Positions 2,453-29,260 of a stretch of 64,000 nucleotides of DNA are shown here, piece by piece. Location of the stretch: contig JAGOAS010000014.1 in NCBI GenBank assembly GCA_017983795.1, positions 44,524-108,523 on the forward strand. Reading direction: 5' to 3'. The first letter of the stretch is position 1. Every line of letters starts with the position of its first letter. A program made the translations under genes and the position numbers. The DNA comes from Piscinibacter sp. GTDB taxonomy: Bacteria; Pseudomonadota; Gammaproteobacteria; Burkholderiales; Burkholderiaceae_C. The notes beneath the pieces are model-generated. The model ran no database searches. It saw only the letters and a program-made list of their open reading frames with translations, and was not told the DNA's origin.

Positions 2453-2457
2453 GTCGT

Positions 2458-6909: not shown

Positions 6910-7155
6910 TCAGCTGCGCAGCGCCTCGTACTTGGCCTGCAGTTCCTCGGGCGATTCGACGAAGTCGGGGTGCTGCTCGATGCAGTCGGCCGGGCACACC
7001 AGCTTGCACTGCGGCTCGTCCTCGGCGCCTACGCATTCGGTGCAGCGCAGCGGGTCGATCACGTAGATCGGGTCGCCGACGCTGATCGCTTCGTTCGGAC
7101 ACACCGGCTTGCAGGCATCGCAGGCGGTGCAGTTCTCGACGATCTGAAGGGCCAT
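6910..7155 (-). CDS. fdx: 2[4Fe-4S] ferredoxin, electron donor of benzoyl-CoA reductase
   Basis: 81-residue ferredoxin. The first cluster motif is Cys9, Cys12, Cys15 and Cys19-Pro; the second is Cys38, Cys41, then an eight-residue insertion before Cys50 and Cys54-Pro, plus an extra Cys58. The insertion and the C-terminal tail after it are hallmarks of the Allochromatium-type low-potential ferredoxins used by Thauera benzoyl-CoA reductase. It is the last gene of the had-to-fdx operon, 28 bases after bcrD. Its likely reductant is KorAB, encoded divergently, and its likely acceptor is BcrABCD. Confidence 0.92.
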   Translation of the reverse strand: MALQIVENCTACDACKPVCPNEAISVGDPIYVIDPLRCTECVGAEDEPQCKLVCPADCIEQHPDFVESPEELQAKYEALRS

Positions 7156-7183
7156 GGTACTTCTCTCCTCGCGTTGCTATGGT

Positions 7184-8023
7184 TCAGGCGGTTGCGGCTT
7201 CGAGCTGCTCGAGCTTGGCGTGGCGGTAGGCCCCCCACAACGCCGCGCCGATGGCGCCGGCATAGATCGAATCGGGGTGCGAGCGTGCCTGCACGTTGAC
7301 CTTCTCGTTGACCATCTCCTCCTGGATGGCGGCGAGCAGGCCGGTGTCCAGCGCCAGGCCGCCGGTCAGCAGCGCCACGCCACCCTTCACGCCCGTCACC
7401 TTGAGCAGCTTGACGATGCGCGAGGCCATCGAGAGGTGGATGCCCTTGAGGATGTCGGGCGTGGCGATGCCGCGGCTGACCATGTTGATGACGTCGGTCT
7501 CGGCCAGCACGGCGCAGATCGAGCTGACCTTCTCCGGATCCTGCGACGACTTCGACAGCGGCCCGATCTCCTCCACCGCCACGCCCAGGTAGCGCGCGAT
7601 GTTCTCCAGGAACTGGCCCGAGCCCGAGGCGCACTGGCTGGTCATCTTGTAGCTGAGCACCTTGCCGCGTTCGTCGACGCTGATGGCGCGGCCGTTGAGC
7701 GCGCCGATGTCGACCACCGCGCGCGCCTCGGGGTCGAGGTAGACGCCGCCGCGCGCGTGCGTGGTCATCGAGTAGAAGTGGCCGGTGGAGAACTTGACGT
7801 TCTCGCCCTCGCCGGTGGTGGCGGTGTAGGCCACGTCGCCGGGCTTCACGCCGGCATCGGCCAGCACGCCTTCGTAGCCCTCGCGCGCCAGCGTCATGGG
7901 GTCGCGGCGGCGGATGCGCTCGCAGCGCTTGGCCAGCCACTCGGGCCGGCCCTCGCCCTCGCTGCGGAACAGCACGCTCTTGACGGCGCCCGAGCCGATG
8001 TCGATGCCGATGGTGTAGGTCAT
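7184..8023 (-). CDS. bcrD: Benzoyl-CoA reductase, subunit D (ATP-binding activator module)
   Basis: 279 residues, the length of Thauera aromatica BcrD. It belongs to the BadF/BadG/BcrA/BcrD ATPase family: IGIDIGSGAVKSVLF at the N-terminus is the first phosphate-binding loop of the actin-like fold, and VVDIGALNGRAI near 103-113 is the second. Cys131 (TSQCASGSGQF) and Cys170 (SSICAVLAETD) correspond to the ligands that, with two cysteines of BcrA, hold the bridging [4Fe-4S] cluster. With BcrA it hydrolyses two ATP per electron pair to drive reduction of benzoyl-CoA to a cyclic dienoyl-CoA. Close match to remembered Thauera BcrD rather than only to the generic family. Confidence 0.94.
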   Translation of the reverse strand: MTYTIGIDIGSGAVKSVLFRSEGEGRPEWLAKRCERIRRRDPMTLAREGYEGVLADAGVKPGDVAYTATTGEGENVKFSTGHFYSMTTHARGGVYLDPEARAVVDIGALNGRAISVDERGKVLSYKMTSQCASGSGQFLENIARYLGVAVEEIGPLSKSSQDPEKVSSICAVLAETDVINMVSRGIATPDILKGIHLSMASRIVKLLKVTGVKGGVALLTGGLALDTGLLAAIQEEMVNEKVNVQARSHPDSIYAGAIGAALWGAYRHAKLEQLEAATA

Positions 8024-8048
8024 GGTGATGTTCTCCTGCTCGCTGCGT

Positions 8049-9380
8049 TCAGGCGCGGGCTTCCGCGGTCTTGCCCTCTTCCACCACCGCGCGCCACGCG
8101 AAGGTGGCGCCGCCCAACGCGCCGGTGTAGATGGAATCGGGGTCGATGTTGAGCGTGAGCTTGCCGTAGTTCTCTTCGACGAGCTCGTTGAGCGCCTTGA
8201 CCGCGGCCTCGTTCTTGGCCACGCCGCCGGTGAAGGTGAACTCGTTGCGGATGCCGCCCGAGCGCGCCAGGATGGACATGGCGCGCAGGATGATGGCGCG
8301 GTGCAGGCCGGCCATGATGTCCTCGCGCTTGTCGCCCAGCGCCAGCCGGTCGCGCAGCTCGGCGCCGGCGAACACCGTGCAGGTGCTGTTGATGCGGATC
8401 GCCTTGGTGCTCTGCATCGCCAGCGGGCCCAGCTCGTGCAGGCCCATGTTCATCTCGTCGGCGATGTAGCCCAGGTAGCGCCCGCAGCCGGCGGCGCAGC
8501 GGTCGTTCATCTGGAAGCTCTCGACGATGCCCGCCGGATCGACCTGGATGGCCTTGGTGTCCTGCCCGCCGATGTCGAGCACGGTGGCGGTGCCCGGGTA
8601 CATCACGTGCGCGCCCAGGCCGTGGCAGAGGATCTCGCTGCGGATGTGCTCCTTGCTGAAGGGCAGCCGCGCGCGGCCGTAGCCGGTGCCGACGACGTAG
8701 GTCTCCTCCATGTCCGTGTCGAGCACCTGCTTGATCGGCGCCGCCACCGCATCACGCTTCGATTGCGTCTCGGGCAGCGCGGCGAAGGTGCGCTCCAGCG
8801 CCGACATCAGGTGACGGCGCACCGAGTCGGCGTAGACGCGGTTCTCGACCTCGATGATGGAGCGGTCGAACAGGTTGAGCAGGTAGTCGTAGCGCATGCC
8901 CAGCGACTTGGCCACATCTTCGCCGATGGCCAGGTACTGGCTGCCGGCGATGTCACGGAAGAAGTCGCTCTTGCGCCGCGCGCCGGGCGCGAACAGCGCC
9001 GGCGCCTCGACGGTCAGGCGCTTGAAGACCTCGTCGAGCGCCTCGGCCACCGGGCCGCTGAAGTTGGAGTGCGCCAGGTTGCGGCGGCAGGTGGCCTCCA
9101 GGTCGACGAGCTGCTCGAGGTACTGCTCGGCGCGGAAGTCGCGTTCGAGCTGGCCGATGAAGTTCTCCAGCGAACCGTTGAGCGCGCCGCTTTGCTGCAG
9201 CGCGCCGCGGAACAGGTGGAAGCGGCCGTTGATCAGCGCCTCGGTCTTGGCCACCGCCGCGGCGGTGTCGTAGTTCGAGCGCGAGTTGGTGATGCCGCGG
9301 CCGATGATGTTCTGCTGCTCGTCGATCACCACCGCCTTGGTGGTGGTCGAGCCCAGGTCGATGCCGATGAAGCAACGCAT
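8049..9380 (-). CDS. bcrA: Benzoyl-CoA reductase, subunit A (ATP-binding activator module)
   Basis: 443 residues starting [20 protein letters not shown], the phosphate loop of the actin-like ATPase fold; the second loop is [13 protein letters not shown] near 268-280. Cluster ligands are Cys295 ([11 protein letters not shown]) and Cys334 ([11 protein letters not shown]). The region of about 150 residues between the two ATPase halves, containing [14 protein letters not shown], is the insertion seen in BcrA and not in BcrD. Readings that extend upstream of 9380 only continue into bcrB in another frame. The gene lies between bcrB and bcrD in the order CBAD known from Thauera. Confidence 0.95.
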
Positions 9381-9409
9381 GTGGTGGTTCCTTTCGCGGT
9401 GCGGCCGGC

Positions 9410-10777
9410 TTAGTTGGCGTGGATCGGGATCGCGCGGGCCAGGTTGCCCGGATCCGGATGGCCGTAGGTGCGCTTCTGCTTGACCATCTGGAAGTAGCTC
9501 TCCAGGCGGTTCTTCACGTTGGCGGCCGAGAAGTAGCGCGGGTCCACCAGATCGGTCTCGATGAAGGCGGCCGGCTTGCCGGTGCGCTTCTCCACCTCGC
9601 GCAGGATGAGCAGCTGCCCGGCCGAGAAGCTGTTGCAGCTCTTGATCGAGTTGATCAGCAACCCGTCGGCCTGGTACTCGTCGATGTAGCGGCAGATCAT
9701 GTCCACGCGCGAGGGCAGGTTCAGGTTGGTGTAGCAGCCCAGGCAGTATTCGGCCAGCGATTCGAGCGGGTGGTCGGGGTCGTGGCGGAAGCCGAAGTCG
9801 TACAGGCCGCCGACCTTCGCGTAGGTGGACGACACCACCACCGCGCCCTCGTCGTAGAACATCTTCCAGAAGTCGCGGAAGCTGGTCCAGTTGGGCGGGC
9901 CTTCGACGATCAGGCGGTATTTCTCCTCGCCCATGTCGCCGTCCGGCGTGACCGGCCCCTTGCCCAGGCGCACGCGCTCCTCGATCTCGGCGCGCAGCGT
10001 GGCGTAGTACTGCGTGGCCTCGGGCGTGCCGCGGAAGGCGGTGAAGATGGGGCCGATGTAGTACACCGCGCCGAAGTAGCCGTCGATCGGGCTGGGCCGG
10101 TTCTTGGCCGACTGCAGCACCTTGACCAGATCCTCCTCGGCCTTGACCGACTCGCGCATGTACTGGCGCAGGCGGTCGATGTCGAACTTGACGCCGGAGA
10201 TGCGCTCCAGCGTCGGGATCACGGTTTCCTTCAACTGCTTGACCACGTAGTCGCGCATGTTCGGCGCGATGTGGCCCTCGCCCTGGTAGGGCACGTGCAG
10301 CATCACGGTCTCGCAGCCGTACTTGTGGCGGACCAGCTCGAACCACTTCATGAAGGTGAAGCAGCCGGTGTAGCTGAGCAGCAGGATGTCGGGCCGCGGC
10401 ATCGGGTCGCCGGTGGGGCCGATCTCGCCGCCCATCATCATGCCCAGGTCGGCCTTCACGTAGGTGCAGACGTCTTCGCTCTGGCCGTCGCGCTCGGCGT
10501 CCATGATCATCTTGCCGCTCTTCTTGCGCATGCCGTTCTGCAGCGCATTGGTCTCCGGCAGGCTGCGCGCGAAGTCGAAGCACATCAGCAGCTCGTTCAG
10601 GTTGCCGGGCACGAAGGTGGCCGACACCTTGCGGTTGTTGGCCCGCGCCGTGGCGAGCTCCATGTAGTTCTTGTTGATCAGTTCCTTCTGCAGCCACATC
10701 GCGTCTTCCTTCTGGACGTTCTGCGGCTTCTTGGCCGAGCCGGTGGGGCTGGGCATGGCGATGGTCTGGGTGTTCAT
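9410..10777 (-). CDS. bcrB: Benzoyl-CoA reductase, subunit B (substrate-binding module)
   Basis: 455-residue member of the HgdB/BcrB/BcrC family. With BcrC it binds benzoyl-CoA and carries two [4Fe-4S] clusters. Conserved cysteines occur in EDVCTYVK (Cys104), [10 protein letters not shown] (Cys139), the later CLGCYTN and in KSCNSFSAG. Stretches such as [11 protein letters not shown]-like [16 protein letters not shown] and the [18 protein letters not shown] segment match Thauera BcrB closely. The N-terminus is somewhat longer than in Thauera, with a Pro/Ser/Lys-rich first 25 residues; an internal Met27 could be an alternative start. It ends 29 bases before bcrA. Confidence 0.94.
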
Positions 10778-10787
10778 GGGGTGCTCC

Positions 10788-11969
10788 TCAGGCGGCGTTC
10801 CACAACTTGATCGAGTCGGCGAAGGTGCCGGCCTGCTCGCGCACCGGCGCCATCTGGCCGGTGTTCTCGGCGTACTTGAAGGCGGTGTGCGGGATGCCGT
10901 GCTGCGAGAGCACGTCCTGCAGCATCGGCCGCTCCAGCAGCGCCGGGTCGCAGAACGAGGGCGCGGCGAAGATCACGCCCTCGGCGCCGCGCGTCTTGAC
11001 CTGCTTCATCAGGAAGACGCCCTTCTCCTCGCGGGTGGCGTCGTACTTGGCGGCGGTGCTGGCACTGCGGTGCAGGAAGGCCTTGGAGAGCTCCTCCAGC
11101 GGCTTGGCGTTGGCGGGCACCTCGTCGAGCAGCCAGCGCGTGACGAGCAGGAAGTCGTCGTCGACCACGTAGCAGCCGGCCATCTCGATGGACTTGATCA
11201 GCGCCAGCGGCGGCTGCTCGCAGAAGCTGCCGTTGATCACCACGCGGGCGTTGTCGCGCTTGGGCCGGCTCACCTGCTCGGCGGCGGCCAGGTAGTCGCG
11301 CACCAGCTGCGTGTGCTGCTCCACCGGCAGCACCATGCCGGCGCGCAGCAGCAGGTAGACCTCGGAGGTGGGCGCCTGCCAGGGCTTGGCGGCGCGGTAG
11401 GCGTAGAGATCGCGGATGGCCTGGCGGTTCTCGTTGTAGACCGCGATCGAGGCGTTCAGCTCGGCGTCGGTGATCGGGCTGCCGCGCATCTTGCCCAGGT
11501 CGTCGCGGATCTGCTGCATCTCCTGCTGGTAGAACACGCCGCCGACGTTGTCCTGGTAGTTCTGCGGCACGTCGACATAGCGCACGTACTTGTCCTTGAA
11601 CAGCATCTGCCACATGCCCGAGAGGTTGCGGATCACGTCGCAGATGCTCGGGAACAGCATGCCGTCCAGGCAGTCGAGCCGGCCGGTCAGGCCCAGCTCG
11701 ATGGTCGAGCGCGGAATGCGGCAGATGTAGCTCTGGTAGTAGGCGTCGCCCTGGATCACTTCGATCTGGTCGCCGCCGCCGAGGATGCCCACCGGCAGCA
11801 TGCCGGCGGCGTGGATCAGCTCGCGCGGAACGTAGACCGGCATGTAGCCGATGGCCTTGCGGCCCGGCACGGCGGCTTTCCATTCCTTGACGGCTTCGAA
11901 ATTCAGGTCTTCGAACAGCGCTTCGCAGCGCTGCACGATGCGGGTGACTTCGGGCAGGGTGGTGCTCAT
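10788..11969 (-). CDS. bcrC: Benzoyl-CoA reductase, subunit C (substrate-binding module)
   Basis: 393 residues starting MSTTLPEVTRIVQR. The ATG at 11969 is chosen over an in-frame TTG one codon upstream; it shares one base with the dch stop (TGATG). The family motifs AIGYMPVYVPRELIHAAGMLPVG and the segment YYQSYICRIPRSTIELG are those of Thauera-type BcrC, and cysteines in CRIPRS, SICDVIRN and GSFCEQPP are candidates for cluster ligation. BcrB and BcrC together hold the aromatic thioester for two one-electron reductions. The gene is translationally coupled to dch upstream and lies 10 bases before bcrB. Confidence 0.95.
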   Translation of the reverse strand: MSTTLPEVTRIVQRCEALFEDLNFEAVKEWKAAVPGRKAIGYMPVYVPRELIHAAGMLPVGILGGGDQIEVIQGDAYYQSYICRIPRSTIELGLTGRLDCLDGMLFPSICDVIRNLSGMWQMLFKDKYVRYVDVPQNYQDNVGGVFYQQEMQQIRDDLGKMRGSPITDAELNASIAVYNENRQAIRDLYAYRAAKPWQAPTSEVYLLLRAGMVLPVEQHTQLVRDYLAAAEQVSRPKRDNARVVINGSFCEQPPLALIKSIEMAGCYVVDDDFLLVTRWLLDEVPANAKPLEELSKAFLHRSASTAAKYDATREEKGVFLMKQVKTRGAEGVIFAAPSFCDPALLERPMLQDVLSQHGIPHTAFKYAENTGQMAPVREQAGTFADSIKLWNAA

Positions 11970-12739
11970 CAACGGTGCTCCCAGGTGGGTGAGCGCTTGG
12001 CGAGGAAGGCCGCCAGGCCCTCGTTGGCGTCGCGGGTCTTCATCAGGCTTTGCAGGTACAGGCGCTCCACGCGCGCCAGTTCGTCGCGCAGTGCGGCCAG
12101 GCGCGGTGCGCGCGCGGCCTGCATGGCATGCGCCAGCGCCGCGGCGCTGCGCGGTGCGAGGTGCTCGTCGAAATAGGCCAGCGCGGCGGCGACCGGGTCA
12201 TCGGCCAGCATCTGCACCAGGCCGATGGCCAGCGCCTGCGCGGCATCGATGCTGCGGCCGCTGCACAGCAGGTCTTCCGCCGCCACCGCGCTGACGCGCC
12301 AGGGCAGCAGGCAGCTGGCCGCGGGCGCGAAGACGCCCAGCTTGATCTCGGGCTGGCCGAATTGCGCGTTCGGCGCCGCGAAGATCGGCCCGCCGGCCAG
12401 CGCGATCTCGAGGCCGCCGCCCAGGCACTGGCCGCGCACGGCCACCAGCACCGGCACGCGGCAGCCGGCCAGCGCCAGGATCAGCGCATGCAGCGAGGCC
12501 AGCATGCCGGCGCAGCGCTCGGCCAGGTGCTCCTCCACGCTGGCGCCGAAGCTGAAGTGCGGGCCCTCGGCGTCGAGCAGCACGCCACGCAGCGCGGCGT
12601 GGCCGGCGTGCGCGTCCAGCGCCGCCTGCAGCGCCTCGATCATCTGCGCGTCGCAGATGTTGGCCTTGGGGCGGTTGAGCGTCAGGTGCAGCAGGGCACC
12701 GTCGCGCTCGAGCGCCACCTTCAGTGGCGACTCAGCCAT
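11969..12739 (-). CDS. dch: Cyclohexa-1,5-diene-1-carbonyl-CoA hydratase
   Basis: 256-residue crotonase-fold enzyme that adds water to the dienoyl-CoA made by benzoyl-CoA reductase, giving 6-hydroxycyclohex-1-ene-1-carbonyl-CoA. The oxyanion-hole motifs are FSFGASVEEH near residue 62 and VRGQCLGGGLEIALAGG near 102-118. Length and position (directly before bcrC) match Dch of Thauera. The start at 12739 overlaps the end of oah by eight bases. A generic enoyl-CoA hydratase is the alternative, made unlikely by the complete pathway context. Confidence 0.92.
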   Translation of the reverse strand: MAESPLKVALERDGALLHLTLNRPKANICDAQMIEALQAALDAHAGHAALRGVLLDAEGPHFSFGASVEEHLAERCAGMLASLHALILALAGCRVPVLVAVRGQCLGGGLEIALAGGPIFAAPNAQFGQPEIKLGVFAPAASCLLPWRVSAVAAEDLLCSGRSIDAAQALAIGLVQMLADDPVAAALAYFDEHLAPRSAAALAHAMQAARAPRLAALRDELARVERLYLQSLMKTRDANEGLAAFLAKRSPTWEHR

Positions 12740-13838
12740 GCTTCTTCGCCCTGGGCTGGATCTCGTCGTGCAGCGGGCCGACCCAGCTCTGGCCGGCGGC
12801 CAGCTTCTGGCGCAGCAGCACGAAATCGATCTCGCGGTCGTCCTTGGGGCCTTCGTTGAACGCGGTGAAGCCCGAGCGTGCCTCGGTCATCATGTTCAGC
12901 GCCAGCCAGGCGCGCGAGTTTTCCTTGTTGCGGTTCCAGGCGTCGAGCTTGGGCTTGCGCAGCTCCTCGATCGTCTTGGTGGTGCAGTCGGGGAAGGTCA
13001 GCAGCATCTTGGCGCACAGCTCTTCCACCTTGGCGTCGAGCAGCGACAGATCCACCGTGCCCTTCTTCATCAGCGCCTTGCCTTCTTCCAGCGCGGCGCC
13101 GGTCTTGGGCTCGCCGTAGACGTTGCGGCCGAACTCGTCGACCATGCGCTGCGTCTCCACCGTCGGGTTGGCGACGAACTTGCCGTCGATCTTGAGCGCC
13201 GGCACCACGTCGGTCAGCACACCCATCTGGTAAGCCTTGTGCGCGCTGAAGGGCTCGCACAGCACGCAGGCGGCCATGGCGCGCTCTGCGCCCACCACCA
13301 CCGGCAGGAAGTCGGTGGCGCCGCCGATCGGCGCCGAGCCGTGCTTGGGGCCGGCCTGGCCGAAGCGCGCCAGATCCTGCGCGACCGAGAAGTCGCAGGC
13401 CATGCCGATCTCCTGCCCGCCGCCGATGCGCATGCCGTTGACGCGGCAGATCACCGGCTTGTCGCAGGCGAGGATGGCGCTGACCATGTCGTTGAACAGG
13501 CGCATGTACTGGCGGTATTCCTGCGGCTGGCCGGCGTAGTACTCGGCGTACTCCTTGGTGTTGCCGCCGGTGCAGAAGGCCTTGTCGCCGGCGCCGGTGA
13601 AGACCACGCAGTTGACGGCGCGGTCGTTGCTCGCCGCGCGCATGGCCAGGATCACGCCCTTGACCATGTCGGTGGTGTAGCTGTTGAACTGGCTCGGGTT
13701 GTCCAGCGTGATCCAGGCGTTGAACAGGCCCGGCACCACCTCGCCGTTGGGCCGTTTGGCCGGACGCCGCTCGTAGCGCACGCCGGCGCGGCTGATGTCG
13801 TCGACGATGTCGTGGTTCTTGAATTCGGGGGCGCTCAC
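12732..13838 (-). CDS. oah: 6-oxocyclohex-1-ene-1-carbonyl-CoA hydrolase (ring-opening)
   Basis: 368-residue crotonase-superfamily enzyme, longer than ordinary hydratases, as is typical for Oah/BzdY. It hydrates the double bond and hydrolytically cleaves the alicyclic ring to 3-hydroxypimelyl-CoA. Recognisable segments are TTDMVKGVILAMRAASND, the oxyanion motif FCTGGNTKEYAEYY and RVNGMRIGGGQEIGMACDF. The start codon is GTG at 13838, with a GAGGAG ribosome site about ten bases upstream. It lies 40 bases after had and overlaps dch. Confidence 0.94.
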   Translation of the reverse strand: MSAPEFKNHDIVDDISRAGVRYERRPAKRPNGEVVPGLFNAWITLDNPSQFNSYTTDMVKGVILAMRAASNDRAVNCVVFTGAGDKAFCTGGNTKEYAEYYAGQPQEYRQYMRLFNDMVSAILACDKPVICRVNGMRIGGGQEIGMACDFSVAQDLARFGQAGPKHGSAPIGGATDFLPVVVGAERAMAACVLCEPFSAHKAYQMGVLTDVVPALKIDGKFVANPTVETQRMVDEFGRNVYGEPKTGAALEEGKALMKKGTVDLSLLDAKVEELCAKMLLTFPDCTTKTIEELRKPKLDAWNRNKENSRAWLALNMMTEARSGFTAFNEGPKDDREIDFVLLRQKLAAGQSWVGPLHDEIQPRAKKHG

Positions 13839-13878
13839 GGCGTGTGTCTCCTCGGTGGGGGTTCGGGTCGGTCGGCGG

Positions 13879-14946
13879 TCAGGGCACCATCACCGCGCGG
13901 CGCGTGATCTCGCGCGCATGCACGGCGTGGAAGACCTCGTTGATGCGCTCCAGCGGGTGCGTCTCGACGAAGGGCGCGAGACGCACCGCGCCGTCGAGCA
14001 CCAGGTCGAGCGCCGCGGGGTAGTACTCGGGCGGGCAGCCCCAGTTGCCGAGCGCGCGGGCGTCGAAGGCCATCAGGTTGGACAGGCGCAGCTCGACCTT
14101 GTCCATCGTGAAGCCCACCACCGACAGCGTCGCGCCGTGCACCAGCAGGTTGAAGGCGCTGGTCTGGCCGGCGGCGGTGCCCGAGCACTCGAAGATCTTC
14201 CATTCGGTGCTGCGCAGGCCGGCGCTGCGCGCGAAATCGGCCACCGCCTTCTTGAGCGCCTTGGCATCCAGCTCGCGCGCGTTCAGCGCCAGCGCGGCGC
14301 CGCCATCGGCGGTGGCGGCTTCCAGCTTGCGTGCATCGACGTCGATCGCCACCACCTGGGCGCCGGCGGCGCGCGCCACCTGCACGCAGTAGCCGCCCAC
14401 GCCGCCGGCGCCGACCACCACGGCCAGGTCACCGGGCTCGACGCCGGCGCGGCGCACCGCCTGGTAGGGCGTGGTCAGCGCATCGGCCACGATGGACACC
14501 TGGGCCAGCGTCAGCCCGGCCTTGGCCAGGCGCTGCTCGTCGACCGGGCACAGCCCGCGCGCCGGCACCACGATGTGCGAGCCGAAGCCGCCCTGGATGT
14601 CGTTGCCCGGCATCTTCTGGCTGCGGCAGATGGTGGTGAGGCCGCGGCGGCACAGATCGCATTCGCCGCAGGGCAGCACTGCCGGCACGATGACGGCGCG
14701 GCCCAGCCAGGCCTCGGCGCCGGCACCCGCGGTCACCACGCGGCCGCTGATCTCGTGGCCGAGCGCCAGCGGCAGCGGCTGGTTGGTGCGCACGCCGTCG
14801 TAGTAGTAGCCCAGGTCGGTGTGGCAGACGCCGCAGCCGGCCACCGCCACCACCACCTCGCCGGCGCCGGGATGCGCCACGAACTCGGCACGCTGCAGCG
14901 GCGCCCCGGGGGCAGTGAACATCCAGCGGTGGGCGGCAAGGGTCAT
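13879..14946 (-). CDS. had: 6-hydroxycyclohex-1-ene-1-carbonyl-CoA dehydrogenase
   Basis: 355-residue zinc alcohol dehydrogenase, first gene of the operon. Catalytic zinc ligands are Cys41 (GVCHTD) and His64-Glu65 (LGHEISG); structural zinc cysteines are Cys93, Cys96, Cys99 and Cys107. The NAD-binding Rossmann motif [13 protein letters not shown] lies near 175-187. It oxidises the 6-hydroxy group formed by Dch to the 6-oxo thioester used by Oah. The divergent 161-base region upstream is shared with korA. Generic ADH identity would be uncertain alone, but order had-oah-dch-bcr makes the call firm. Confidence 0.93.
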
Positions 14947-14986
14947 CGAAGCTCCTGGTGATGGCTGCGAAGGTTATTTCGGTATT

Positions 14987-14996
14987 GCAGTACTGC
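14987..14996. promoter_or_regulatory. Perfect palindrome in had/korA divergent promoter region, candidate operator
   Basis: GCAGTACTGC is a perfect ten-base palindrome 41 bases upstream of the had start, in the only AT-richer part of this gap (TTATTTCGGTATTG precedes it). It is placed where a repressor could block transcription of the had-to-fdx operon. No BzdR, BoxR or BadR-like regulator gene is visible in the window, so the binding protein, if any, is encoded elsewhere. A ten-base palindrome can occur by chance. Confidence 0.3.
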
Positions 14997-15040
14997 TTTA
15001 CGTGTTTTCCCGAGTTTTGACCCGTCGACACCGGTTGACT

Positions 15041-15054
15041 TTGAGCTGGATCAG
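15041..15054. promoter_or_regulatory. Candidate FNR/AcpR-type box between had and korA
   Basis: TTGAGCTGGATCAG matches the FNR-family consensus TTGAT-N4-ATCAA at eight of ten defined positions. Anaerobic benzoate operons in Aromatoleum/Azoarcus are activated by an FNR orthologue (AcpR) through such a site, so a box between the two divergent benzoate operons is biologically sensible. Placed at -41.5, it would put the had start point near 15006, leaving a 60-base leader. The match is by eye and not statistically tested. Confidence 0.4.
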
Positions 15055-15107
15055 ATGTGCAGCGGCACGGCGCGCGTTCACTGAGCGCCTCGAACAGGAG
15101 GAGACAC

Positions 15108-17716: not shown

Positions 17717-18252
17717 ACCGCCCACGCTTCACCGGTGCGCAAAGCGCGCCGCGCTCGCTGAACGAACTGATGGGCCAGGCGCTCACGATGGAGCGCGAGG
17801 CCGTGGCCCGCTACACCGAGCTGGCCGACATGATGGAGACGCACAACAACCTCGACGTGGCGGCGCTGTTCCGCAAGATGGCGGGCTACGAGCAGCTGCA
17901 CGTCAACCAGATCCTGGCCGACATGGGCTGGGCCGAAGACGTGGTGGTGCCGCGCCAGAGCGGCGTGTGGGGCACGCCCGAATCGCCCGAGGTGGTGCCC
18001 ATCGAGGAGATGCACTACCTGATGCACCCCTGGCACGCGCTGCAGCTGGCGCTCTCGGCCGAGCAGCGCGCCGAGGCCTTCTTCGCCGAGCTGGCCGGCA
18101 CCGCCGCCACCGAAGCGGTGCGCAAGGCCGCCGAGGAGATGCGCCAGGAAGAGGCCGAGCACGTGGCGCTGGTGCGCGAGTGGCTGGCCAAGGTGCCGCA
18201 GCCCGACGGCGACTGGTCGGTCGACCCGGATCCGCCGCGCTACATCGACTGA
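17713..18252 (+). CDS. Ferritin-like/rubrerythrin-family di-iron protein
   Basis: 179 residues, starting at a GTG that overlaps the korB stop. Two ferritin-like helix pairs carry Glu27/Glu29, the ExxH motif Glu60-His63, a Glu near 118-121 and a second ExxH Glu147-His150, enough for a di-iron site. There is no C-terminal rubredoxin Cys4 domain, so it is not a classical rubrerythrin. Placed inside the kor-liv-bcl operon it may protect oxygen-sensitive KorAB or benzoyl-CoA reductase by removing oxygen or peroxide, or store iron. That role is inference. Comparable genes are, as I recall, found in some other benzoate clusters without assigned function. Confidence 0.75.
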   Translation: MNRPRFTGAQSAPRSLNELMGQALTMEREAVARYTELADMMETHNNLDVAALFRKMAGYEQLHVNQILADMGWAEDVVVPRQSGVWGTPESPEVVPIEEMHYLMHPWHALQLALSAEQRAEAFFAELAGTAATEAVRKAAEEMRQEEAEHVALVREWLAKVPQPDGDWSVDPDPPRYID

Positions 18253-18270
18253 CGCAGCGAGGCAATGGCC

Positions 18271-18678
18271 ATGACCCTGCAGACCCTGCTGCCCGACGGC
18301 TGGAAGGCCCCGATCGGCTACGCCAACGGCATCGTCGCGCCCGTCGGTGCGCGCATCGTGTTCGTCGCCGGACAGGTGGGCTGGAACGCGCAGCAGATCT
18401 TCGAGAGCGAGGAGCTGGCGCCGCAGTTCGAGCAGGCGCTGCGCAACGTGCTGACGGTGCTGGCGCAGGCCGGCGGCCGGCCCGAGCACATCTGCCGCAT
18501 GACGGCCTACTGCTGCGACAAGCCCGGCTACCTGGCGGTGCGCAAGCAGCTCGGCGCGGTATGGCGGCAGCTGATGGGCAGCCACTACCCTGCGATGAGC
18601 ATGATCTTCGTCTCCGACCTGCTCGACCACCCCGGCAAGATCGAACTCGAAGCCACCGCCGCCGTGCCCGCGGCCTGA
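18271..18678 (+). CDS. RidA/YjgF-family protein with altered active site
   Basis: 135 residues starting MTLQTLLPDGWKAP; this ATG is preferred over one two codons upstream because the GAGG site is correctly spaced from it. The fold is recognisable from IVFVAGQVGWNA, ALRNVLTVLAQAGGRPEHICRM and the C-terminal KIELEATAAV. In catalytic RidA enamine/imine deaminases a conserved Arg follows Pro-Ala; here the equivalent segment reads YPAMSMIFV, so that Arg is replaced by Met. It may therefore bind a pathway intermediate or act on another substrate. It sits between the di-iron protein and livF in the benzoate operon. Confidence 0.8.
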   Translation: MTLQTLLPDGWKAPIGYANGIVAPVGARIVFVAGQVGWNAQQIFESEELAPQFEQALRNVLTVLAQAGGRPEHICRMTAYCCDKPGYLAVRKQLGAVWRQLMGSHYPAMSMIFVSDLLDHPGKIELEATAAVPAA

Positions 18679-18693
18679 GGAGCCGAGAGGCGC

Positions 18694-19419
18694 ATGGCCA
18701 CCCCGCCCCACGCCGACGACGCCCTGCTCAGCGGCCGCGCGCTGCATGCCTGGTACGGCTCCAGCCATGTGCTGCACGGCGTGGACATCGCCATCGGCCG
18801 CGGCGAGACGCTCGGCCTGCTGGGCCGCAACGGCATGGGCAAGAGCACGCTGATCCGCACGCTGCTGGGCCATGTGGCGCGGCGCGACGGCAGCATCCGC
18901 ATCGCCGGCGCCGACCTGTCGCGCGCGCGGCCGCACGAGGTGGCGCGGCGCGGCGTGGCCTACGTGCCCGAGGGGCGCGGCGTCTTCGCCAACCTGAGCG
19001 TGCGCGAAAACCTGGTGATGGCCGCGCGGCCGTCGCAGCACAGCCGCGGCTGGGGGCTGGAGCGCGTGCTGCAGACCTTTCCGCGCCTGGCCGAGCGGCT
19101 GCACCACCTGGGCGGCCAGCTCTCCGGCGGCGAACAGCAGATGGTGGCCATCGGCCGCGCGCTGATGACCAACCCGGCGCTGATCCTGCTCGACGAAGCC
19201 ACCGAAGGCCTGGCGCCCAGGATCGCCGCGCTGATCTGGGACGTGATCACGCAGATCCGCAGCGACGGCATCGCCACGCTGATCGTCGATCGCAACTACC
19301 GCCAGGTGAGCGAACACGCCGACCGCCTGCTGGTACTGCAGAAGGGCCAGGTCGTGCTCGCCGGCAGCGCCGCCGAGTTGCGCCACGGGCCCGAACTGGC
19401 CCGCTACCTGGGCCTCTGA
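18694..19419 (+). CDS. livF: Branched-chain-type ABC transporter ATPase (LivF-like), probable benzoate importer
   Basis: 241-residue ATPase: Walker A GRNGMGKST near 45-53, signature LSGGEQQM, Walker B ALILLDEATEGLAP. It belongs to the hydrophobic amino acid/amide transport family, whose members in anaerobic benzoate clusters are thought to import benzoate. It is separated from the rest of the transporter (livK-livH-livM-livG) by the benzoate-CoA ligase gene, so uptake and activation are co-expressed. The segment LIVDRNYRQVSEHADR replaces the more usual VEQN of LivF, a minor deviation in the switch region. Confidence 0.85.
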   Translation: MATPPHADDALLSGRALHAWYGSSHVLHGVDIAIGRGETLGLLGRNGMGKSTLIRTLLGHVARRDGSIRIAGADLSRARPHEVARRGVAYVPEGRGVFANLSVRENLVMAARPSQHSRGWGLERVLQTFPRLAERLHHLGGQLSGGEQQMVAIGRALMTNPALILLDEATEGLAPRIAALIWDVITQIRSDGIATLIVDRNYRQVSEHADRLLVLQKGQVVLAGSAAELRHGPELARYLGL

Positions 19420-19436
19420 CCCTCTTCGAGCCAGCC

Positions 19437-21047
<1,611 letters not shown>

Positions 21048-21079
21048 AAACAAGCAGATCCATCCAAGGAGACAAGCCC

Positions 21080-22246
21080 ATGAACCGCTCCCCGTTCGCC
21101 CTCACCCTGGCCGCGCTGTCGCTGGCCGCCGCACTGCCTGCCGCGGCGCAAGGCGCGCCCAAGCTGCGCGTCGGCCTGATGCTGCCCTACACCGGCACCT
21201 ACACGGCGCTGGGCAATGCCATCGAGAACGGCTTCAAGCTCTACGTCGGAGAACAGGGCGGCAAGCTCGGCGGGCGCGAGATCGAGTACTTCAAGGTCGA
21301 CGACGAATCCGACCCCGCCAAGGCGGTGGACAACGTCAACAAGCTCATCAAGCGCGACAACGTCGACGTGCTGGTCGGCACCGTGCACTCAGGCGTCGCG
21401 ATGGCCATGGCCAAGGTGGCCAAGGAGACCGGCACCCTGCTGATGGTGCCCAATGCCGGCGCCGACGCGGTGACCGGCGCGATGTGCGCGCCCAACATCT
21501 TCCGCTCCAGCTTCAGCAACTGGCAGACCGGCTACGCGATGGGCCAGGTGATGGCCACCAAGGGCCACAAGAACGCCGTCTCCATCACCTGGAAATACGC
21601 CGCCGGCGACGAGATGGTGCGCGGCTTCAAGGAGGCCTTCGAGAAGGGCGGCGGCAAGGTCGCCAAGGAACTGAGCCTGCCCTTCCCCAACGTCGAGTTC
21701 CAGGCCCTGCTGACCGAGATCGCGGCGGCCAAGCCCGACGCGGTGTTCTCCTTCTTCGCCGGCGGCGGCGCGGTCAAGTTCGTCAAGGACTATGCCGGCG
21801 CGGGCCTGAAGAAGAGCATCCCGCTCTACGGCACCGGCTTCCTCACCGACGGCACGCTCGAAGCGCAAGGCGCCGACGCCGAGGGCGTGATGACATCGCT
21901 GCACTACGCCGATTCGCTCAATACGCCGCGCGACAACAACTTCCGCCTCGCCTACGCCAAGACCTACAAGCTGCAGCCCGACGTCTACGCGGTGCAGGGC
22001 TACGACGCGGCGCAGATGCTCGGCATCGGTCTGACCGCCGTGAAGGGCGACGTGAGCAAGAAGGCGGAGATCGCCGCGGCGATCGAGAAGGCCAAGATCG
22101 ACAGCCCGCGCGGTGCGTTCAGCGTTTCCAAGTCGCACAACCCGGTGCAGGACATCTACCTGCGCCAGGTCAGCGGCAAGGAGAACAAGGTGGTGGGCGT
22201 GGCCTCCAAGGCGCTCGCCGATCCGGCGCGCGGCTGCCGGATGTAG
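21080..22246 (+). CDS. livK: ABC transporter periplasmic binding protein (LivK-like), probable benzoate receptor
   Basis: 388 residues with a signal peptide (MNRSPFALTLAALSLAAALPAAAQG). The mature protein starts LRVGLMLPYTGTYTALG, the hallmark of the type I periplasmic binding fold of leucine/amide and aromatic-acid receptors. A good AGGAGA ribosome site precedes the ATG. It lies 32 bases after the benzoate-CoA ligase and six bases before livH. Ligand specificity for benzoate is inferred from context only. Confidence 0.88.
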   Translation: MNRSPFALTLAALSLAAALPAAAQGAPKLRVGLMLPYTGTYTALGNAIENGFKLYVGEQGGKLGGREIEYFKVDDESDPAKAVDNVNKLIKRDNVDVLVGTVHSGVAMAMAKVAKETGTLLMVPNAGADAVTGAMCAPNIFRSSFSNWQTGYAMGQVMATKGHKNAVSITWKYAAGDEMVRGFKEAFEKGGGKVAKELSLPFPNVEFQALLTEIAAAKPDAVFSFFAGGGAVKFVKDYAGAGLKKSIPLYGTGFLTDGTLEAQGADAEGVMTSLHYADSLNTPRDNNFRLAYAKTYKLQPDVYAVQGYDAAQMLGIGLTAVKGDVSKKAEIAAAIEKAKIDSPRGAFSVSKSHNPVQDIYLRQVSGKENKVVGVASKALADPARGCRM

Positions 22247-22251
22247 GACGC

Positions 22252-23133
22252 GTGGATCTCGCCACCTTCCTCATCCAGTGCCTGAACTCGCTGCAGTACG
22301 GGCTGCTGCTGTTTCTCGTCGCCAGCGGGCTGACGCTGATCTTCGGGATCATGGGCGTCATCAACCTGGCGCACGGCAGCTTCTACATGATCGGCGCCTA
22401 CATGGCCTTCGCGCTGGCGCCCATCGTCGCGGCGACCTTCGGCGGCGGCTTCTTCGCCACGCTGCTGGTGGGCGTGGTGCTGGCGGTGCTGCTGGGCTAT
22501 GTGCTCGAGTGGGTGTTCTTCAGCTACCTCTACCAGCGCGAGCATCTGCAGCAGGTGCTGATGACCTACGGGCTGATCCTGGTGTTCGAGGAACTGCGCA
22601 GCATGCTGGTCGGCGACGACGTGCACGGCGTGCAGCCGCCCGCCATCCTCTCCGGCACGCTGCCGCTGGGCGAGGTGATGACCTACCCGGTCTACCGGCT
22701 CTTCATCTCGGCGGTGTGCCTGGCCCTGGCCGCGTGCATGTGGTTCGTGTTCGCGCGCACACGGCTCGGGATGATGATCCGCGCCGGCAGCACCAACCGC
22801 GAGATGGTGCAGAGCCTGGGCATCGACATCAAGGTGCTCTACCGCGTGGTATTCGCCGCCGGCGTGGCCATCGCGGTGCTGGCGGGCATGGTGGCGGCGC
22901 CGGTGTCGTCGGTCTACCCGGGCATGGGCAACCAGGTGCTGATCGTCTGCTTCGTGGTGGTGGTGATCGGCGGCATCGGCTCGGTGCGCGGTGCGCTGCT
23001 GGCGGCGCTGCTGATCGGCATCGTCGACACCTTCGGCAAGGTGCTGCTGCCGCAGGCGGCCGGCGTGCTGGTCTACGTGCTGATGGCGCTCATTCTTCTC
23101 TGGAAGCCCGACGGGCTGTTCAGGGCCGGATGA
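22252..23133 (+). CDS. livH: Branched-chain-type ABC transporter permease (LivH-like)
   Basis: 293-residue inner-membrane permease, start codon GTG at 22252. About eight hydrophobic helices are visible; the signature LTLIFGIMGVINLAHGSFYM lies in the first third, and GGIGSVRGALLAALLIG near the C-terminus is the coupling loop to the ATPases. It pairs with LivM to form the translocation channel. The gene starts six bases after livK and ends one base before livM. Confidence 0.9.
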   Translation: MDLATFLIQCLNSLQYGLLLFLVASGLTLIFGIMGVINLAHGSFYMIGAYMAFALAPIVAATFGGGFFATLLVGVVLAVLLGYVLEWVFFSYLYQREHLQQVLMTYGLILVFEELRSMLVGDDVHGVQPPAILSGTLPLGEVMTYPVYRLFISAVCLALAACMWFVFARTRLGMMIRAGSTNREMVQSLGIDIKVLYRVVFAAGVAIAVLAGMVAAPVSSVYPGMGNQVLIVCFVVVVIGGIGSVRGALLAALLIGIVDTFGKVLLPQAAGVLVYVLMALILLWKPDGLFRAG

Positions 23134-23134
23134 G

Positions 23135-24124
23135 ATGACGGCATCTCCCAAGATGGCCTTCGTCGCCGCGGCCTTCGCGGCGCTGGCGCTGTATCCGCTG
23201 GTGGGCGGGTCGTTCGGCATCGACATGGTCACCAAGACCATGATCTACGCCATCGCCGCGCTCAGCCTCGAGCTGCTGGTGGGCAGCACCGGGCTGGTGT
23301 GCTTCGGGCAGGCGGCGTTCTTCGGCATCGGCGCCTATGCGGCGGTGCTGCTCTCGGCCCAAGTGGACTCTCCCTCGGCGCTGTGGCTGCTGCCGGCCTG
23401 CGTGGCCGCCGCGGCGCTGTACGCGCTGGCGGTGGGGGCGCTCAGCCTGCGCACGCGCGGCGTCTACTTCATCATGGTGACGCTGGCCTTCGCCCAGATG
23501 GCCTATTACGCGGTGCACGACACGCCGCTGGGCGGCGGCACCGACGGCATCTACCTGAGCCAGCCGCCGCAACTGGCGGGCCTGGACCTGGGCCGGCCGC
23601 AGGTGATCTACGGCCTGACGCTCGTGCTGCTGGCGGCGGTATTCGTGGGCCTGGCGCTGCTGCTGCGCTCGCGCTTCGGCCGCGCGCTGGCGGGCATCCG
23701 CGTCAACGAGCAGCGCATGCGCGCCACCGGCTTCTCCACCTATCCGTACAAGCTCGCGGCCTTCACGCTCTCGGGCGGCATCGCCGGGCTGGGCGGATTC
23801 CTGTTTGCGGTGAAGGACGGCTTCGTCAACCCCGAGTTGCTGAGCTGGCACGTGTCGGGCGCGCTGCTGGTGATGATCATCCTGGGCGGTCTGGGCCGCC
23901 TGCGCGGCGCGCTGATCGGCGCCTTCGCCTTCGCGCTGCTGCAGGAGCTGTTCAAGTCCGAAGCCGTGTGGGGCGCGCTGGCGCGGCATTGGAACCTCGG
24001 CTTGGGCCTGACCATCATCGCCAGCGTGGCGCTGCTGCCGCGCGGCCTGGTGGGCCTGCCGCAGCGTTGGCGCGAAGCGCTGCTCGGGCGCTCGCCGCGC
24101 GGCAGCGCGGAGGCGGCGCGATGA
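23135..24124 (+). CDS. livM: Branched-chain-type ABC transporter permease (LivM-like)
   Basis: 329-residue permease with about nine or ten predicted helices. Characteristic elements are TGLVCFGQAAFFGIGAYAAV, the conserved cytoplasmic stretch GRALAGIRVNEQRMRATGF and the ATPase-contact loop GGLGRLRGALIGAFAF. Its last bases overlap the start of livG by four (ATGA). It forms the channel with LivH for the probable benzoate importer. Confidence 0.9.
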   Translation: MTASPKMAFVAAAFAALALYPLVGGSFGIDMVTKTMIYAIAALSLELLVGSTGLVCFGQAAFFGIGAYAAVLLSAQVDSPSALWLLPACVAAAALYALAVGALSLRTRGVYFIMVTLAFAQMAYYAVHDTPLGGGTDGIYLSQPPQLAGLDLGRPQVIYGLTLVLLAAVFVGLALLLRSRFGRALAGIRVNEQRMRATGFSTYPYKLAAFTLSGGIAGLGGFLFAVKDGFVNPELLSWHVSGALLVMIILGGLGRLRGALIGAFAFALLQELFKSEAVWGALARHWNLGLGLTIIASVALLPRGLVGLPQRWREALLGRSPRGSAEAAR

Positions 24125-24897
24125 ACGGCGCCGAGGTGCTGCTGCGCTGCACCGGCCTGACGCGCCGCTGGGGCGGGCTGGTGGCGGTGTCGGATGTGTC
24201 GCTCGAGCTGCAGCGCGGCACGGTGCATGCGGTGATCGGCACCAACGGCGCGGGCAAGAGCACGCTCATCAACATGCTCTCGGGCGAACTGGCGCCTTCC
24301 GCCGGCCGCATCGAACTGCTGGGGCAGGACGTGACGGTCTGGCCGCAACCGAAGCGCGCACGCGCCGGCCTCGGCCGCAGCTACCAGCGCAACACCATCT
24401 ACCCCGAGTTCAGCGTGCTGGAAAACTGCCGGCTCGCTGCGCAGGCGCGCTGGCAGCGGCCCTGGGCCTGGTGGCAGGCGGCCGAGCGCTGCAGCGACAG
24501 CAACGCCAGCGCGCGTGAGGCTGCGGCCTCGCTCGGCCTGACCGAGCAGCTGGATCTGCTGGCCGGCGCCTTGTCGCACGGCCGCAAGCGCCAGCTCGAG
24601 ATCGCCATGTGCCTGGCCACCGCGCCCGAAGTGCTGCTGCTCGACGAGCCGCTGGCCGGCATGGGCGCCGAGGAGACCGAGCGCATGCTGGACCTGCTCC
24701 ACAACCTCAAGCGCGGCCACGCCATCCTGCTCGTGGAGCACGACATGGATGCGGTATTCCGCGTCGCCGATCGCATCACCGTCATGGTCGACGGCAGCGT
24801 GCTGGCCAGCGGCACGCCCGACGAGGTGCGCCGCAACCAGCAGGTGCAGGACGTCTACCTCGGCGGCCACGACACGGCCGCTACATCCCACCCCTGA
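24121..24897 (+). CDS. livG: Branched-chain-type ABC transporter ATPase (LivG-like)
   Basis: 258-residue ATPase. Walker [13 protein letters not shown], signature [12 protein letters not shown], Walker [14 protein letters not shown], followed by the switch His in [11 protein letters not shown]. The signature has His instead of the second Gly of LSGG, as is common in LivG. The ATG at 24121 overlaps livM and is chosen over longer out-of-context readings. It is the partner of the LivF-like ATPase placed before the ligase gene. Confidence 0.9.
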
Positions 24898-24907
24898 ATC
24901 GAAAGCC

Positions 24908-25507
24908 ATGCCCAGCTACCAGATCGACGGCCTGACCCCGGTGGTCGACCCGAGCGCCTTCGTGCACCCGACGGCGGTGCTGATCGGCGACGTGATCATC
25001 GGCCCCGGCTGCTACGTCGGCCCCTGCGCCAGCCTGCGCGGCGACTTCGGCCGCATCGTGCTCGAAGCCGGCAGCAACGTACAGGACAGCTGCGTGCTGC
25101 ACAGCTTCCCGAACCACGAGATGGTGGTCGAGACCAACGGCCACATCGGCCACGGCGCTGTGCTGCATGGCTGCAGCGTGCGCCGCGACGCGCTGGTGGG
25201 CATGAACGCGGTGGTGATGGACGAGGCCGAAGTCGGCGAGCAGGCGATGGTCGCGGCCTGCGCCTTCGTGCCGGCCGGCACCAAGCTGCCGCCGCGCACG
25301 CTGAGCGTGGGCACGCCGGCGCGCGTGCTGCGCGAGCTGCGCGACGGCGAACTGCAGCGCAAGCGCGAGGCCACCGCCTACTACCAGGAGCTGGCGCGCC
25401 GCTGCCTGGCGACGCTGCACGAGGTGCAGCCGCTGGCCGCGCCCGAAGCCGGCCGGCGCCGCCTGGAGCTGCCGCCGGTGCGCCCCCTGACCGATACACC
25501 CCGCTGA
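24908..25507 (+). CDS. PaaY/gamma-carbonic-anhydrase-like hexapeptide protein, possible acyl-CoA thioesterase
   Basis: 199 residues forming a left-handed beta-helix of hexapeptide repeats ([23 protein letters not shown] and following), then a C-terminal helical tail. Histidines in [10 protein letters not shown] and [11 protein letters not shown] are placed as in gamma-class carbonic anhydrase folds that bind a metal between trimers. The closest named relative is PaaY of the aerobic phenylacetate pathway, a thioesterase that frees CoA from dead-end intermediates. Here it lies in the anaerobic benzoyl-CoA operon, 10 bases after livG, and could rescue CoA from stalled alicyclic thioesters. That function is inference. 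Confidence 0.78.
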
Positions 25508-25540
25508 TCCACCCCCCCTTTTTCCGAACGGAGACCTGCC

Positions 25541-26722
25541 ATGGCCAGCGCCGCCCACTTCACCTGGGACGACCCCCTGCTGCTCGACCAGCAACTCAGC
25601 GACGACGAACGCGCCGTGCGCGACGCCGCATACGCCTACTGCCAGCAGAGACTGCTGCCGCGCGTGCAGCACGCCTTCCGCCACGAGCAGACCGACCCCG
25701 CCATCTTCCGCGAGATGGGCGAGCTCGGCCTGCTCGGCCCCACCATTCCCGAAGCCTATGGCGGCGCCGGCCTCAACTACGTCTGCTACGGCCTGATCGC
25801 ACGCGAGGTCGAGCGCATCGACTCGGGCTATCGCAGCATGATGAGCGTGCAGAGCTCGCTGGTGATGGTGCCGATCAACGAGTTCGGCAATGCCGCAACG
25901 AAGCAGAAATACCTGCCCAAGCTGGCCAGCGGCGAATCGATCGGCTGCTTCGGCCTCACCGAGCCCAACCATGGCTCCGACCCCGGCAGCATGATCACGC
26001 GCGCGCGCAAGGTCGATGGCGGCTACGCGCTGAGCGGCTCGAAGATGTGGATCAGCAACAGCCCGATCGCCGACGTCTTCGTCGTCTGGGCCAAGGACGA
26101 GGGCGGCCAGATCCGCGGCTTCGTGCTCGAGAAGGGCTGGAAGGGCCTGTCGGCGCCGGCCATCCACGGCAAGGTCGGCCTGCGCGCATCGATCACCGGC
26201 GAGATCGTGATGGACAACGTGTTCTGCCCCGAGGAGAACGCCTTCCCCGAGGTGCGCGGCCTGAAGGGCCCGTTCACCTGCCTGAACAGCGCACGCTACG
26301 GCATCGCCTGGGGTGCGCTGGGTGCGGCCGAAGATTGCTACCACCGCGCGCGCCAGTACACGCTCGACCGCCAGCAGTTCGGCCGGCCGCTGGCCGCCAA
26401 CCAGCTGGTGCAGAAGAAGCTGGCCGACATGCTGACCGACATCACGCTCGGCCTGCAGGGCTGCCTGCGCCTGGGCCGCATGAAGGACGAAGGCACGGCC
26501 GCGGTGGAGATCACCAGCATCATGAAGCGCAACAGCTGCGGCAAGGCGCTGGAGATCGCCCGCATGGCGCGCGACATGATGGGCGGCAACGGCATCAGCG
26601 ACGAGTTCGGCGTCGCACGCCACCTGGTCAATCTGGAAGTCGTCAACACCTACGAGGGCACGCACGACATCCACGCGCTGATCCTCGGGCGCGCGATCAC
26701 CGGGATCCAGGCGTTCAGCTGA
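25541..26722 (+). CDS. gcdH: Glutaryl-CoA dehydrogenase (decarboxylating)
   Basis: 393-residue acyl-CoA dehydrogenase-fold enzyme that oxidises and decarboxylates glutaryl-CoA to crotonyl-CoA, passing electrons to ETF. Residues corresponding to those of human GCDH are visible: Arg98 and Ser102 in [10 protein letters not shown] and the Tyr371-Glu372 catalytic pair in [12 protein letters not shown]. The FAD-binding [15 protein letters not shown] is also typical. It fits the lower benzoyl-CoA pathway, where 3-hydroxypimelyl-CoA is shortened to glutaryl-CoA. Last metabolic gene of the plus-strand operon, with an ACGGAGA ribosome site. Confidence 0.93.
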
Positions 26723-26788
26723 GCGCGCATGTCGACACCCGGCGTCCGATATCCCGCGCTGCGCCCACCCACACTGGAGTCTCAACCC

Positions 26789-29044: not shown

Positions 29045-29260
29045 GATCGTTGTCCTTTGATCGGCGTCATGGACAGGTTTCGACTCATTGAGGCTGAACT
29101 CAAGCTCGGCGCGGCGGCTTGAGCTAGGGACAAACCCCCGGGGGTTCCAGGCCCGCGCGAAATCGTTCACGACCTGGCCGCGCCGAGCCCAGGCGCCGGA
29201 TCCTTGTAGGATGCCTGCCACCATTCATGGCTCGCCGCTGAACAGCGGCCTGGGAAGACC

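Follow-up and report, generated by a model that had tools for sequence, protein, structure and literature searches.

How does a Burkholderiales-like chromosome come to carry the genes for anaerobic degradation of benzoyl-coenzyme A (benzoyl-CoA), and from where? The question is raised by 64,000 nucleotides of Piscinibacter sp. (the window, meaning this whole stretch), which are bases 44524-108523 of contig C28 in an assembly of 4.24 Mb and 45 contigs. A first-pass annotation had placed two divergent operons in it and read them as a Rhodocyclales-type, Thauera-like pathway residing in another lineage by descent or transfer. The answer argued here is that these genes form the core of an island for the anaerobic degradation of aromatic acids, lying within about 59 kb of extra DNA. 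This DNA most likely entered the species' lineage from another member of its family, and it bears no recognisable integration mark.

The first clue is what the genes encode. Curated NCBIfam cut-offs are passed by eight products (bcrA, bcrB, bcrD, dch, oah, had, fdx and bcl) and by YtfE. Products outside these are named from Pfam, solved-structure or under-cut-off matches. The minus-strand operon holds the candidates for ring reduction and opening; it is listed here together with the region that separates the two operons:

6910..7155, minus strand, fdx, 2[4Fe-4S] ferredoxin (NF033683, YfhL-family ferredoxin, 112 bits, cut-off 86; best solved match 1rgv, 115 bits)
7184..8023, minus strand, bcrD (TIGR02261, 433 bits, cut-off 313; Cys131 and Cys170)
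8049..9413, minus strand, bcrA (TIGR02259, 702 bits, cut-off 578; true start probably some residues downstream of the start of the open reading frame, ORF)
9410..10777, minus strand, bcrB (TIGR02260, 779 bits, cut-off 487)
10788..11972, minus strand, bcrC (PF06050 HGD-D, 227 bits)
11969..12739, minus strand, dch, dienoyl-CoA hydratase (TIGR03189, 359 bits, cut-off 293)
12732..13838, minus strand, oah, ring-opening hydrolase (TIGR03200, 629 bits, cut-off 464)
13879..14946, minus strand, had, 6-hydroxycyclohex-1-ene-1-carbonyl-CoA dehydrogenase (TIGR03201, 580 bits, cut-off 339; solved match 7qul, 566 bits)
14947..15056, unstranded, had-korA divergent intergenic region (read directly)

The reductase belongs with the Bcr-type class I benzoyl-CoA reductases, subunits A, B and D lying above the Bcr equivalog cut-offs and C being assigned by PF06050 only. 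Dch, Had and Oah are all encoded beside it, and all exceed their equivalog cut-offs. PF01869 matches at just two places in the genome, both inside the cluster, and therefore bcrA and bcrD are single-copy. Cysteines stand at the matching motif places of BcrA (306/310 and 345) and BcrD (131 and 170); such paired A- and D-subunit cysteines are presumably the ligands of a shared cluster. No solved Bcr structure was found by sequence search, the nearest being MbdO (179 bits), and simple patterns found no FNR-type site in the 110-base divergent region. The plus-strand operon, with candidates for electron supply, uptake, activation and glutaryl-CoA oxidation, runs as follows:

15057..16886, plus strand, korA (TIGR03710, 542 bits, subfamily cut-off 483)
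16883..17716, plus strand, korB, frame scanned from 16877 (PRK11866, 275 bits, and PorB_KorB, 258 bits against a cut-off of 262, both under cut-off; TPP_enzyme_C)
17713..18252, plus strand, rubrerythrin/ferritin-like gene, the 'di-iron' gene of the first-pass annotation (PF02915)
18265..18678, plus strand, Rid-family protein (PF01042)
18694..19419, plus strand, livF-type ATPase (UrtE 219 bits, LivF 180 bits, both under cut-off)
19416..21047, plus strand, bcl, benzoate-CoA ligase (TIGR02262, a subfamily model, 801 bits, cut-off 375; solved benzoate-CoA ligases, 872 bits)
21047..22246, plus strand, livK-type binding protein, ORF frame with the start further in (PF13458, 248 bits)
22240..23133, plus strand, livH-type permease (PF02653, 115 bits)
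23135..24124, plus strand, livM-type permease (UrtC/LivM models, under cut-off)
24124..24897, plus strand, livG-type ATPase (UrtD 234 bits, LivG 190 bits, both under cut-off)
24902..25507, plus strand, paaY-like, start approximate within ORF 24749-25507 (TIGR02287, 297 bits against a cut-off of 320, ORF residues 57-246)
25541..26722, plus strand, gcdH, glutaryl-CoA dehydrogenase (solved glutaryl-CoA dehydrogenases, 748 bits; below all NCBIfam cut-offs shown)
26729..27463, plus strand, ytfE, Fe-S cluster repair protein, 6 bases after gcdH and on the same strand (NF008221, 307 bits, cut-off 254)

The GYRS and YEGT stretches of GcdH, which we take to be catalytic, are kept. Profile, Pfam and solved-structure matches put the named genes where the first-pass annotation had them, and its view of a Bcr-type benzoyl-CoA pathway in a Burkholderiales-like chromosome is supported: judged by sequence, 6910-26722 holds the full gene set of such a pathway.

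What would these enzymes do together? With roles assigned by family membership, benzoate would be taken up by the liv-type ABC transporter and activated to benzoyl-CoA by Bcl. BcrCBAD would reduce the benzoyl-CoA at the expense of ATP. Ferredoxin would supply the electrons and be recharged by KorAB through oxidation of 2-oxoglutarate. Hydration, oxidation and opening of the ring would follow by Dch, Had and Oah, with GcdH acting on glutaryl-CoA further down. A respiratory nitrate reductase, NarG (2213 bits), is also encoded in the genome. Nitrate is therefore a likely acceptor, and NarG nitrate respiration the likely electron sink.

The second clue comes from congeners. Relative to four of them the window's genome carries about 59 kb of extra DNA, which extends about 30 kb past the window's left end. 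Its right edge is here:

29240..29261, unstranded, right edge of the extra DNA, where congener synteny resumes; it adjoins xthA (29261-30028)

The distance from xthA to the left-flank genes is 1.9 kb in G004, 5.4 kb in G005, 9.4 kb in G006 and 2.2 kb in G007, against about 59 kb in the window's genome. Those left-flank genes sit near 13.7-14.6 kb of C28, and both flanks and the island are on one contig. Four of the seven congeners thus lack, at this locus, an island that the window's genome has. The borders first drawn at 6910..26722 are too narrow. None of the seven congeners has a PF01869 match. Nor does any have an above-cut-off hcrA (a gene of the left part of the island, listed below), which all 13 other genomes searched do (the window's own and 12 picked for carrying bcr). 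In an NtrC tree the window's genome groups with G005 and G007 (support 99), outside G001-G004 and G006. Since G005 and G007 have the short version of the locus, a gain needs fewer steps than repeated loss. As a separate observation, photosynthetic reaction-centre genes occur in five of the seven congeners and are absent from the window's genome, G002 and G007.

Does the extra DNA bear any mark of its entry? The GC content is 0.709 against 0.707 and 0.700 in the flanks, and a codon-use test, which rests on a rough gene caller, shows no difference (p 0.53). Composition was accordingly rejected as a mark of transfer, and its likeness to the flanks is as the first-pass annotation had said. That annotation was also right that no tRNA marks the borders, there being none in the window or marking the extra DNA, and its claim of no integrase holds among the ORFs examined. 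One 15-base direct repeat is shared by the two border regions. It was rejected as an attachment site and taken as chance because it lies inside the cupredoxin and MCP genes, not at both borders. Carriage on a plasmid was likewise rejected: a tblastn search of BcrB against 72,556 plasmid records returned nine records, all below 60% identity (best row 26%) and none of the Bcr type. A composition-based island search would miss this island.

The third clue is phylogenetic. Trees of the 'quick' type were built for 46 of 52 genomes with usable RpoB, leaving out G001, G004 and G006 (no bcr), G024 (bcr locus not supplied), G664 (no BcrC) and G1163 (no BcrD). Family membership is direct or equivalent for six of the 17 family rows and is taken from RpoB identity (86.5-92.2%) for the other 11. 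The labels 'classic' and 'Rhodocyclaceae' for G1227, G1242 and G1297 are likewise assigned indirectly, the rows coming from the family sample of a metagenome-assembled genome (MAG) titled Sterolibacterium. In the concatenated BcrABCD tree the 17 family rows, the window included, form one clade (support 90) within a Burkholderiales-type group. Outside it, on long branches, fall the three classic-type rows, along with two further members of the phylum. Grouping the window with the classic-type rows, which are probably Thauera-like, is rejected by the approximately unbiased (AU) test (p-AU 4.6e-56). Inside the family, the window's sister is RUBRI1 in Bcr (support 100) but LinL3 in RpoB (support 99), and swapping the pairs is rejected by the AU test on both data sets (p 2e-5 on Bcr, 7e-5 on RpoB). 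Because the sisters differ and each data set rejects the other's, transfer is supported, though within the family. Among the loci compared, RUBRI1 also ranks first in identity with the window for eight of nine island proteins. The exception is BcrB, for which another row reaches 96.3 against 94.3 for RUBRI1, over a shorter stretch. Some BcrB proteins are far closer across families than RpoB suggests (for example 93.8% against 79.1%), a pattern in which slow change and transfer look alike.

Could the source have been a Thauera-like member of the Rhodocyclales, as first proposed? The best solved matches of hcrA and fdx are 1rm6 and 1rgv, both of which we take to come from Thauera aromatica. The gene order is that of the three classic-type loci and that reported for T. 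aromatica (PMC6449761). However, Bcr identity is 66-74% to the three classic-type sets and 94-95% to RUBRI1, and the tree refuses the classic grouping, which makes such a donor barely credible. The notion of a Rhodocyclales-type reductase in a foreign lineage falls with it: of descent or transfer, transfer gains support and its Thauera-type source does not. An assembly or binning artefact is also highly improbable. The 59 kb are unmarked and lie on one contig of a 45-contig assembly, but both flanks on that contig match congener synteny, the GC content and codon use agree with the flanks, and contamination is given as 0.01. What if nothing moved, and the family's ancestor had the pathway, which most lineages, the seven congeners among them, then lost? 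Both the Bcr and the RpoB tree recover the family as a single clade, BcrB is found in several of its genera (20 of 399 genomes), and the divergent layout is old, being common to all three classic-type loci. Yet the housekeeping tree that agrees with Bcr at family level conflicts strongly with it inside the family, over the window's sister. In addition, the lack of PF01869 in every congener and the short locus in four of them would need repeated, similar deletions. Purely vertical descent is therefore unlikely, although less so than the other two.

Entry from a same-family member is thus preferred, and several observations weigh against it. The AU p values are weakened because the pairs were chosen after the trees had been seen. 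LinL3, the RpoB relative nearest the genus, itself carries bcr, so the genes may have been ancestral and later lost and replaced. RUBRI1 does not hold a copy of the donor island, because its module order differs. The empty site is informative in four of the seven congeners only: in G001 and G003 ntrC and xthA lie together, but the stretches read beyond them have no match to the left flank of C28 (rearranged), and in G002 the contig ends there. G005 and G002 are 77% and 84% complete. No integrase, repeat or composition signal, and no molecular scar, speaks for a single event; the 59 kb may have arrived in several steps. Finally, KorB, PaaY, PaaK and the Por subunits (except gamma and the NAD(P) protein) are under the equivalog cut-offs shown. 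Entry from within the family still fits the conflict between trees and the empty site best, with a direction and a date of transfer that we infer.

The extra DNA left of the pathway core is listed here, first inside the window and then, in left-to-right order, in contig coordinates or by eye:

492..1523, minus strand, TRAP-type binding protein, DctP (PF03480, 118 bits)
1550..2473, minus strand, 2-oxoacid oxidoreductase beta (PRK11864-type 320 bits, PadI 215 bits, both under cut-off)
2458..3615, minus strand, 2-oxoacid oxidoreductase alpha (PF01855 and PF17147; among solved structures closest to the alpha chain of a pyruvate:ferredoxin oxidoreductase, 291 bits)
3612..5279, minus strand, NAD(P)/FAD protein with a C-terminal PorD-type ferredoxin domain (PRK12771, 526 bits, cut-off 516; PorD_KorD, 52 bits, residues 503-553)
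5276..5833, minus strand, 2-oxoacid oxidoreductase gamma (PorC_KorC, 131 bits, cut-off 81; PadE 90, cut-off 300)
5968..6906, plus strand, LysR-type regulator (LysR models, under cut-off)
C28 ~14817-15623, enoyl-CoA hydratase-like gene, leftmost in the extra DNA (by eye)
next rightward, acetyltransferase, membrane protein without a Pfam match, hemerythrin, then TRAP-type genes (by eye)
next rightward, acyl-CoA dehydrogenase, enoyl-CoA hydratase, short-chain dehydrogenase
next rightward, rubrerythrin-ligase fusion and NfnAB-like protein
C28 31023-34901, hcrB, hcrA and hcrC (hcrA 1281, cut-off 995; hcrC 260, cut-off 258; hcrB 487, cut-off 405)
C28 36592-42217, PadBCD-like set with a PaaK-like ligase, separated from hcr by a LysR gene (by eye)
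next rightward, more TRAP-type genes, the 2-oxoacid oxidoreductase operon, the benzoyl-CoA island, ytfE and a chemotaxis receptor (MCP) gene

All three subunits of the 4-hydroxybenzoyl-CoA reductase HcrABC exceed their equivalog cut-offs, and with the ligase they probably feed hydroxybenzoates into benzoyl-CoA. A second route, from phenylacetate, is probably provided by the PaaK-like ligase (583 bits against a cut-off of 646), the PadBCD-like set and the 2-oxoacid oxidoreductase. The molybdopterin and Fe-S subunits of the PadBCD-like set are recognised by distant models (best solved match ArrA, 84 bits), and its third subunit has no match. The oxidoreductase (1550-5833) was considered as the phenylglyoxylate dehydrogenase PadEFGHI and rejected, PadE scoring 90 against 300 bits and PadI 215 against 700. 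The rubrerythrin-ligase fusion (C28 26481-28670, outside the window) joins a zinc-ribbon/rubrerythrin part to a hydroxybenzoate-CoA ligase-like part. The former is like the C-terminal domain of proteins in the 'trifunctional' PRK12775 family, whose NfnAB-like remainder is the preceding gene. The same fusion seems present in L089 (97% of its length) and L066 (83%), whereas in L052, L109 and RUBRI1 the match is confined to the ligase part.

How widespread are such clusters? Genomes with an above-cut-off BcrB number 20 of 399 in the family, 14 of 399 in the order and 3 of 398 in the phylum (the window's genome counted each time), and 6 of 199 in the family of the MAG titled Sterolibacterium. A scan of 84,980 species' genomes found at least 505 relatives, and the counts that follow concern the best 80. 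Nearly all are titled Burkholderiales, Betaproteobacteria or genera thereof; Thauera/Azoarcus is absent from the titles, and Aromatoleum, Sterolibacterium and Gammaproteobacteria appear once each. The order bcrCBAD is kept in 72, and korA lies divergently upstream in 53, many of the others being short contigs. porC is present in 11. The ferritin-like gene accompanies kor and bcr in 45 and the Rid gene in 38; the former, also found in all three classic-type loci, might, as a guess, protect oxygen-sensitive enzymes.

Some loci stand apart. The bcr/kor cluster of L111 is of the Burkholderiales type (Bcr 77-87% identical, RpoB 62%), although the MAG is titled Gammaproteobacteria; the cluster may have crossed classes, or the contig may be misplaced. 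Further BcrB-like proteins, distant ones that score 210-245 bits and stay below the cut-off, occur at L044-L048, L166-L168 and L257-L261, several of these genomes having a true BcrB as well; they are possibly methylbenzoyl-CoA or other aryl-CoA reductases. In G024 (L005, L039, L076) bcr is split: a bcrB lies near 3.56 Mb together with part of the cluster, and there are bcrA/D-like genes near 1.98 Mb too.

What does this mean? The textbook genera for anaerobic ring reduction are Thauera, Azoarcus, Magnetospirillum and Rhodopseudomonas. No description of Bcr clusters in the window's family as such was found in the open-licence literature, and a 2024 survey by benzoate-CoA ligase context gives, in the portion available, only aerobic contexts for Comamonadaceae (PMC10803450). 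Since the best 80 loci are nearly all titled Burkholderiales, Betaproteobacteria or genera thereof, too few groups may be receiving credit for the removal of benzoate from anoxic soil, water and sludge. Perhaps the Burkholderiales own a deep Bcr-type branch, usually as movable modules (kor/bcr, hcr, pad, por) that cross genera within one family and blend into the host because donor and host have a common base composition. The window's species, without the reaction-centre genes of five of its congeners but with NarG, might by gaining the island have moved in a single step from living on light to living on anaerobic aromatics. This wider picture is tentative, and somewhat more likely to fail than to hold.

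How does the locus compare with known systems? The RUBRI1 MAG (L051, L308-L312) has kor, had and oah 87-93% identical to the window's and pad, paaK and hcr on the same contig, but its modules are shuffled and por, bcl and gcdH are unmatched in the 100 kb read. Aquabacterium humicola RJY3 (L052, L313-L315) carries about 33 kb with pad-like, paaK, hcrCAB, ligase, bcr, kor and por modules, and its Bcr is 87-92% identical. It differs in module order, with por directly after rid, and the stretch read has no match to the window's bcl or gcdH. The bzd-type benzoyl-CoA reductase of Azoarcus/Aromatoleum catalyses the same reaction and belongs to the same superfamily as the Bcr type; the window scores 64 bits for BzdO (cut-off 449) and 133 for BzdQ (cut-off 380). 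Aromatic degradation genes are reportedly gathered likewise in the 300-kb island of Geobacter metallireducens (PMC1924859), a likeness of description and not of sequence. The closest in layout is the had-oah-dch-bcrCBAD-fdx cluster of T. aromatica, with which, by its reported gene order (PMC6449761), the window shares the same eight genes in the same order and a Bcr-type reductase, although the window's Bcr lies in another clade than the three rows labelled, indirectly, as classic. The enzymes and their order are of a known kind; this new member belongs to a little-noticed Burkholderiales branch, in a lineage where the pathway appears commoner and more mobile than the textbook genera suggest.

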